Assembly: GCF_017301615.1 (NCBI RefSeq)
Contig: NZ_CP059066.1
Location: 1,082,001 to 1,146,000, forward strand
Direction: 5' to 3'
DNA: 64,000 nt
Source of the DNA: Koleobacter methoxysyntrophicus
GTDB lineage: Bacteria; Bacillota; Thermosediminibacteria; Koleobacterales; Koleobacteraceae
Shown here: piece after piece, positions 3,675 to 59,358 of the stretch
Numbering within the stretch: position 1 is the stretch's first letter
Layout: the number at the start of each line of letters is the position of its first letter
Notes under the pieces: model-generated
Seen by the model: only the letters and a program-made list of their open reading frames with translations
Told to the model about the DNA's origin: nothing
Database searches by the model: none
Program-made: the position numbers and the translations under genes

Positions 3675-3750
3675 GGGCCATTAGCTCAGGCGGTAGAGCA
3701 CCTGACTTTTAATCAGGGTGTCGGAGGTTCGAGTCCTCCATGGCTCACCA
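3675..3750 (+). tRNA. tRNA-Lys(TTT)
   Basis: Complete cloverleaf: acceptor GGGCCAT/ATGGCTC, anticodon stem CCTGA/TCAGG with loop CTTTTAA, T-arm GGAGG-TTCGAGT-CCTCC, encoded CCA. Confidence 0.97.
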
Positions 3751-3767
3751 TTGTTTAAAACCAGGAA

Positions 3768-3842
3768 GGCCCCTTGGTCAAGTGGTTAAGACACCGCCCT
3801 TTCACGGCGGTAACAGGGGTTCGAATCCCCTAGGGGTCACCA
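3768..3842 (+). tRNA. tRNA-Glu(TTC)
   Basis: Acceptor GGCCCCT/AGGGGTC, anticodon stem CCGCC/GGCGG with loop CTTTCAC, T-arm AGGGG-TTCGAAT-CCCCT, encoded CCA. It lies 17 bases after tRNA-Lys. Confidence 0.97.
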
Positions 3843-3843
3843 C

Positions 3844-3920
3844 GGCCCAGTAGTTCAGTTGGTCAGAACGCCGGCCTGTCACGCCGGAGGTCGAGGGTTC
3901 AAGTCCCTTCTGGGTCGCCA
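3844..3920 (+). tRNA. tRNA-Asp(GTC)
   Basis: Acceptor GGCCCAG/CTGGGTC, anticodon stem CCGGC/GCCGG with loop CTGTCAC, T-arm GAGGG-TTCAAGT-CCCTT, encoded CCA. One base separates it from tRNA-Glu. Confidence 0.97.
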
Positions 3921-3926
3921 TTACCA

Positions 3927-4002
3927 GCTGGCGTAGCTCAACCGGTAGAGCAGCTGACTTGTAATCAGCAGGTTGCGGGTTCGAGTCCCATCGCCAGCTC
4001 CA
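3927..4002 (+). tRNA. tRNA-Thr(TGT)
   Basis: Acceptor GCTGGCG/CGCCAGC, anticodon stem CTGA/TCAG with loop CTTGTAA, T-arm GCGGG-TTCGAGT-CCCAT, encoded CCA. A T8 run directly after CCA could help end the transcript. Confidence 0.97.
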
Positions 4003-6155: not shown

Positions 6156-6230
6156 GCGGTAGTAGTTCAGGGGTAGAATGTCGGCTTCCCAAGCCGAAGA
6201 TCGCGGGTTCGAATCCCGTCTACCGCTCCA
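6156..6230 (+). tRNA. tRNA-Gly(TCC)
   Basis: Acceptor GCGGTAG/CTACCGC, anticodon stem TCGGC/GCCGA with loop TTCCCAA (anticodon TCC), T-arm CGCGGG-TTCGAAT-CCCGT, encoded CCA, then a T8 run. Confidence 0.97.
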
Positions 6231-8177: not shown

Positions 8178-8374
8178 ATATGACTATATACTTTACTCAG
8201 GATACGGTAAGTCCAGTTGAATAAATGGCAAACACATAAGCGACTGTTAATTTGGCTCGAAGTCATGGATGGCGGAGAGCCAAATTCCAGAGTGAGCGGA
8301 GCATGGAGGCGGAGCAAACGGCAAGCGGAGGGATGCCATTTATAATTCTCCCTGAGCTAAGGGGATAGTCATAT
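8178..8374. mobile_element. MITE-like structured element with terminal inverted repeats
   Basis: About 197 bases bounded by ATATGACTAT (8178-8187) and its exact complement ATAGTCATAT (8365-8374); the similarity continues inward around CTCAGG/CCTGAG. Two nested perfect 10-bp inverted repeats lie inside: ATAAATGGCA (8221-8230) with TGCCATTTAT (8334-8343), and AATTTGGCTC (8249-8258) with GAGCCAAATT (8277-8286). The right half is repeated near 57.3 kb. No coding capacity is seen. The whole unit would fold as a long hairpin, as expected of a miniature transposable element or a REP-like repeat. The parent transposase is not in the window. Confidence 0.6.
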
Positions 8375-8462
8375 ATAATAATAACCATAGGTTTTTCAAA
8401 TAAAGTCAATAAAGCCATAAAGAAAATACAATAACTAAAAGTGCTATGATAGTAGAAGTTTT

Positions 8463-8498
8463 AATAAAGTCAATAAAGTCAATAAAGTCAATAAAGTC
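8463..8498 (+). repeat. Tandem 9-bp repeat AATAAAGTC before a ribosome site
   Basis: Four head-to-tail copies of AATAAAGTC (8463-8498) lead into ATAAAGGAGGG, the ribosome site of the DMT transporter gene. A partial extra array (AATAAAGTC, AATAAAGCC) lies at about 8399-8416. Copy-number slippage would change the promoter-to-ribosome-site distance. Confidence 0.85.
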
Positions 8499-8515
8499 AT
8501 AAAGGAGGGTAGCAA

Positions 8516-57267: not shown

Positions 57268-57356
57268 ATTCCGGAGTCAGCGGAGCTGAGAGCGATACGA
57301 ACGGCAAGTGGAGGGATGCCATTATAATTCTCTCTGAGCTAAGGGGATAGCCATAT
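57268..57356 (+). repeat. Second copy of the right half of the MITE-like repeat
   Basis: ATTCCGGAGTCAGCGGAGC... to GGGGATAGCCATAT matches 8285-8374 closely over about 90 bases with few differences; long identical runs include GAGGGATGCCAT and CTGAGCTAAGGGGATAG. The left half and its terminal inverted repeat are absent here. Confidence 0.8.
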
Positions 57357-59110: not shown

Positions 59111-59261
59111 CTCCAGTAAGTATTCTTTACAGAATTGGACCTGAATGGGTAATGGCAGCCAATGTGGAAATTTAGCAGACTTAAGTTAATTAAAAGGATT
59201 TTGAATCTTTATGCCGAATAGTAATTTATAAGCAATTAGTGAAATATTACGAAAATCAATA

Positions 59262-59341
59262 GTTTAAGGGTAAACCTGCCGAAAGACAGGGGCACAAAGC
59301 CGTGGGTCTAAGGCTTAAAAAGCTATGACTGCCTGGCTGCA
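59262..59341 (+). promoter_or_regulatory. Class-I cyclic-di-GMP riboswitch (GEMM) aptamer
   Basis: The conserved core is present: AAGGGTAAACC, a GAAA-tetraloop hairpin (CCTGCCGAAAGACAGG), then GGCACAAAGCCGTGGGTCTAAGG and the P3-side TATGACTGCCTGGCTGC. The GGG before TAAACC keeps the central G associated with c-di-GMP rather than cGAMP preference, an inference by alignment from memory. It stands directly before a terminator and the giant IPT/TIG gene. Confidence 0.93.
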
Positions 59342-59358
59342 ATTCTTTGGGGAGTTTA

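Follow-up and report, generated by a model that had tools for sequence, protein, structure and literature searches.

Do the nested hairpins at one intergenic locus of Koleobacter methoxysyntrophicus belong to a mobile element, and what might keep their fold? The locus lies in the window, the whole 64,000-nucleotide stretch analysed here (positions 1,082,001-1,146,000 of the single 3,102,782-bp contig, 3.10 Mb, of the host genome, G000). It was first noticed as an element with 10-bp terminal inverted repeats, two further inverted repeats nested within them and a half-copy elsewhere in the window. An inverted-repeat search recovered both inner repeats as perfect 10-nt pairs (8221-8230 with 8334-8343 and 8249-8258 with 8277-8286, each 100%), together with a 24-nt inverted repeat of 79% complementarity at the ends (8178-8201 with 8351-8374). 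The 10-bp terminal repeats are thus present, with the correction that bases 8178 and 8374, one at either extremity, are part of a target site duplication; the element proper ends in the perfect 9-bp termini TATGACTAT/ATAGTCATA (Table 1). No open reading frame of at least 120 amino acids runs across 8179-8373, in keeping with the non-coding character first ascribed to it, and the flanking genes are peptidase-like and transporter-like (names read from translations, not from family searches). The half-copy near 57.3 kb is real, with 89% identity to positions 106-194 of a full copy; it is a truncated relic, and lies between thiolase-like and chemoreceptor-like genes, again named from their translations. 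To the right of the full copy, AATAAAGTC-type units are repeated at 8396-8502, ahead of the next gene. The window also holds a cluster of four tRNA genes (3675-4002), a fifth tRNA gene (6156-6227) and a c-di-GMP-I riboswitch (59259-59344; Rfam RF01051, 72.4 bits).

Table 1. Parts of the full copy and of the truncated copy, in window coordinates.
Feature	Position	Strand	Evidence
Left 8-bp target site duplication, TATAATAA	8171-8178	.	Sequence; perfect match to right flank
Complete MITE copy, 195 bp	8179-8373	+	Sequence, BLAST, inverted repeats, target duplications
Left terminal inverted repeat; perfect over the outer 9 bp, imperfect further in	8179-8201	+	Inverted-repeat search; end pattern
5' side of core outer stem	8221-8230	+	Perfect inverted repeat with 8334-8343
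Conserved three-armed core; match to covariance model R1, 107.6 bits	8233-8333 (G000:C1:1090233-1090333)	+	
Arm B hairpin, AATTTGGCTC...GAGCCAAATT; symmetric purine internal loop, hairpin loop with GGA	8249-8286	+	
Arm C hairpin; GTGAGC...GCAAAC in this copy, GTGAGC...GCGAAC in the family	8292-8319	+	Sequence, alignment
3' side of core outer stem	8334-8343	+	Inverted-repeat search
Right terminal inverted repeat	8351-8373	+	Inverted-repeat search; end pattern
Right 8-bp target site duplication, TATAATAA	8374-8381	.	Sequence
Truncated right-half MITE copy, left part missing; terminus ATAGCCATA at 57347-57355	57268-57355	+	

We searched the host genome by BLAST with a 251-base query and obtained 41 matches, far above chance; the half-copy used as query gave 40. 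The pattern of the left end occurs at 51 sites of this genome and that of the right end at 35, with control counts of 0. The copies with two ends are 192-196 bp long (n = 23), and all full copies display one common architecture. These 23, out of 30 loci (the other seven lack two ends fitting the pattern), were used to examine the insertion boundaries. Perfect 8-bp, AT-rich target duplications flank 20 of the 23, two others agree at 7 of 8 positions and one at 5 of 8, and no perfect duplication was found at lengths of 5-7 or 9-11 bp (0/23). Among mismatched flank pairs, our chance control, only 3.2% agree at all 8 positions. Five of the 23, near-identical to each other (L006-L010), are the same insertion, located near one end of an insertion sequence (IS) and copied with it at five places, so that the independent insertions number 19, of which 16 have perfect duplications. 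The genome-wide family proposed in the original prediction is therefore borne out, and the outcome that would have spoken against it, two copies only and no insertion boundary, is not what we observe: copies are many and boundaries clear. A chance duplication of two sequences, without insertion boundary, has no point in its favour that we could find; it is refuted by the 41 matches and the sharp 8-bp duplications, and its probability is negligible. The same duplications speak against a REP or tyrosine-transposase repeat, as repeats of that type insert without target duplication. The element is almost certainly a miniature inverted-repeat transposable element (MITE), the outer parts of which are of the ordinary kind with clean target duplications, and its mobility in this genome is, as judged from the sequence, well supported.

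Partial copies are numerous. Many of them (L061-L079) keep an exact left end while their interior stops at varied points, some with more than 90% identity, and left-only relics are seemingly commoner than right-only ones (~10 versus 4, counted among the partial BLAST matches in G000). Clustering of their breakpoints at the central hairpin gave too weak a signal in this genome to be claimed. With respect to transcription, the orientation count, which took in 49 of 55 loci, gave 19 copies in sense and 15 in antisense between tandem gene pairs, the five IS-borne copies included, and hence no clear bias.

How these copies were moved was addressed through their ends. A transposase gene bounded by ATATGACTAT ends, which the original prediction had suggested as a partner, was found neither in G000 nor in the 397 further genomes searched from its phylum. 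With a looser end pattern, all 61 sites in G000 fall on MITE copies or relics, and the end pattern gave two single sites only in the 397 other genomes. Note that an autonomous element sharing the ends of a MITE is usual and not required; such partners may be lost or may have diverged. The IS that carries five of the copies was considered and rejected as the mover, its ends (CAGGGCAAAATCATTT...AAATGATTTTGCCCTG) being unlike TATGACTAT. Its transposase matches Pfam PF13808 and PF01609, from which we read it as an ISAs1-type IS.

The interior of the element tells a different kind of story from its ends. The core, of ~100 nt, folds on its purine-rich strand into an outer stem and two hairpins, arms B and C. 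Every arm contains a symmetric purine internal loop, and GGA usually occupies both hairpin loops in the alignment, one G000 subfamily (L018, L019, L023) lacking it in both; junction and loop bases are conserved besides the stems. We built a covariance model, R1, from 16 seed sequences, in which 14 of 23 pairs display double changes. In an alignment of 46 cores from 43 loci, changes on both sides are observed in 24 of 25 base pairs (225 cells), counts that lean towards the structure because this alignment was fitted to that of the model. In the same alignment, paired cells amount to 92.4%, the covariation score is 0.555 versus 0.233 when shuffled, none of 500 shuffles reaches any of the five measures, and slid versions yield at most 11 pairs. 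Rfam 15 gave no family on the core, either for the window at the gathering threshold or for 21 loci at E ≤ 1, with the exception of a chance-level match to MIR2619 (E 0.54, far below gathering) that overlaps the core in L103. An origin from a 5S rRNA-like sequence, to which the Y shape had pointed, was dropped because Rfam reported no 5S at the core.

We then asked how far the core extends beyond the host. A search of 80 relatives returned two genomes of other families that match the interior of the element only, and their interiors fold alike. The R1 model matches 12 of the 397 other genomes of the phylum, i.e. 13 of 398 with G000; its matches number 87 in G335, 50 in G000, 16 in G314, 15 in G171, 13 in G064 and 6, 4, 3, 2, 1, 1, 1 and 1 in the remaining ones. 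The core is present in all five examined genomes of the family to which G335 belongs. In genome contigs, a first pattern gave 0 matches and a looser one 11 stretches, and in viral contigs two patterns gave 0 matches. Some cores have particular surroundings: three loci of G335 (L103, L158, L172) hold pairs of cores ~50-90 bp apart in opposite orientation, and in L104, L115 and L125 (G393, G063) TTGTGGATAA, or a near match, which we take to resemble a DnaA box, lies to the left of the core, separating it from a terminator.

The carriers differ markedly in their ends. In G171, the core sits in elements of 234-236 bp with ends GAGCTTGTTGAC...CAACAGCCTGA, linked to the other carriers by the model alone (E 6.6e-11), BLAST giving no link. 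Within 2 bases of the ends of these elements, five of eight two-ended copies have direct repeats of 15-33 bp, each resembling a complete terminator hairpin; the repeats match exactly in two copies and contain mismatches in the other three (eight of nine loci were used, L198 lacking both ends); mismatched flank pairs average a score of 12.4 but reach 36, so that single cases need care. No transposase for these elements was found among the end sites examined. In G335, the carriers are mosaic elements with common ends TTGATATATTGTTGCAG, measured on 22 and 13 chosen loci; no target duplication was found at the ends tried, and mobility there thus rests on copy number. The BLAST similarity between one G335 element and that of the window is significant solely at positions 61-153 of the latter (E 2e-10). 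Similarity confined to the core, together with differing ends and duplications, shows that the carriers have the core in common but not their ends, and a module common to unlike MITEs is strongly indicated. Overall, the nested hairpins first noticed in the window are a conserved covarying fold, common to elements of distant genomes, and the core is very probably a shared module under structural constraint.

These data also bear on whether the core might itself be a tiny mobile element, inserted into different MITEs or swapped between them by recombination. Such a core would explain why similarity ends at its edges, why in G335 the core and its short arms stay constant amid mosaic outer flanks, and why in G064 a long-armed core is nested within another copy of its repeat, which it interrupts (L094/L122, G064:C6 near 80100). 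However, neither a target duplication nor a constant boundary was found at the core edges, and the full copies in G000 have one architecture; we consider a mobile core unlikely.

What the constraint acts on, single-stranded DNA or RNA, was approached through the composition of the pairs. Genome-consensus pairs from 11 of the 13 genomes (G240, G291 and two weak secondary matches left out) comprise 233 Watson-Crick, 4 G-U, 4 A-C and 10 other cells (251 in all), and 18 tRNAs of the same DNA have 373 Watson-Crick, 29 G-U and 0 A-C among 402 pairs, a control that is biased because ARAGORN reports standard pairs only. The share of G-U is 1.6% of core consensus cells versus 7.2% in tRNAs (Fisher p 0.0015, G-U versus Watson-Crick). 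Counted in 31 of the 46 cores, near-duplicates removed, single sequences give 622 Watson-Crick, 18 G-U, 20 A-C and 49 other. The scarcity of G-U pairs speaks, though not decisively, for single-stranded DNA rather than RNA, and the balance of G-U and A-C points to either a DNA-level constraint or a strand-neutral process; equal numbers of the two are also expected from the neutral decay of dead copies, which makes this a weak argument for DNA versus RNA. The purine-rich strand is the more stable in 12 of 12 cores with RNA and DNA parameters alike, an asymmetry equally compatible with RNA and with single-stranded DNA, and only one of the two strands gives meaningful purine loops. Note that the motifs stable in DNA hairpins include GGA triloops, GGA/GGA internal loops and tandem G-A pairs. 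With low confidence, we infer that the core folds as single-stranded DNA.

Alternatively, the core could be a structured RNA acting in trans once the element is transcribed, for instance as a putative decoy for an RNA-binding protein such as CsrA, the sites of which are GGA in hairpin loops. The strong covariation, the strand-specific purine loops with GGA in the hairpin loops of most alignment rows, the single strand that folds more stably in every core compared, and the pair at columns 9-113, where eight of the 46 sequences have G-U and not one has A-C, as expected of RNA, would all be in line with this. The deficit of G-U relative to tRNAs, the subfamily devoid of GGA in either hairpin loop, the lack of an Rfam match and the lack of a clear orientation bias relative to genes are not, and we regard a trans-acting RNA as rather unlikely. 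The equality of G-U and A-C, as produced by a strand-neutral process, is also what one expects if the core has no function and descends from one ancient MITE, its arms kept complementary by copying errors templated on the other arm; consistent with this, neither a partner nor a phenotype is known. A core of this kind would not account for junction and loop bases as conserved as the stems, nor for a module that persists in elements with unrelated ends, and it appears improbable.

We return to a constraint on folded single-stranded DNA. When a strand becomes single-stranded, e.g. at the replication fork, the module may fold, and its closing stem would then bring both element ends into proximity. 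Ends paired in this way could help any transposase, which would favour the copying of whichever MITE carries the module. Since other Bacillota have the module within MITE-like elements whose ends are unrelated, it is not tied to one transposase. This DNA-folding mechanism, with its candidate role in end pairing, is offered tentatively. Likewise, it is possible, and we would not put it higher, that the module is transposase-independent, promotes the spread of any MITE containing it, acting in the form of folded single-stranded DNA or of RNA, and has been kept by MITEs of unrelated transposase families across the Bacillota. The explanation as a whole, with the mechanism counted in part, seems to us evenly poised between right and wrong.

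Several known systems resemble parts of this picture. HEARO/IsrB and other transposon-linked structured RNAs are structured non-coding modules on multi-copy mobile elements, as is the core; the core differs from HEARO in having no Rfam match at E ≤ 1 and in the 8-bp target duplications of the window element. IS1182-type elements make long variable duplications, and the G171 carriers are like them in their 15-33-bp duplications of terminator-like hairpins and unlike them in that no transposase was found among the end sites examined. In PMC10969869, MITEs such as QMITE2 of Coxiella burnetii are described as ORF-free, of ~200 bp or less, strongly foldable, with terminal inverted repeats and AT-rich intergenic sites, all as in the window element, and the direct repeats of QMITE2, 7-9 bp, are similar to its 8 bp; the same text describes bacterial MITEs as giving transcripts with stable stem-loops. 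In contrast to QMITE2-type MITEs, the window element has an inner core kept by covariation, which other families of its phylum have in elements whose ends are unrelated, and no partner IS was found for it. BOX, RUP and SPRITE of the pneumococcus, compared by their description in PMC3049150, are alike in being interspersed, modular and probably parasitic, with extensive predicted secondary structure; they are described there for Streptococcus, whereas the core is found across several Bacillota families, in elements whose ends differ.

A description of the element or of its core was not found in the literature searched, mainly open-access, and a covarying core common to unlike elements appears undescribed there. 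MITEs are usually read as the stripped-down remains of one IS each. If a structured, covarying core is indeed common to elements that differ in ends and target duplications, non-autonomous elements would possess a functional component that is their own. The core is a candidate family missing from Rfam and offers a small, experimentally tractable system in which to study the multiplication of such elements.
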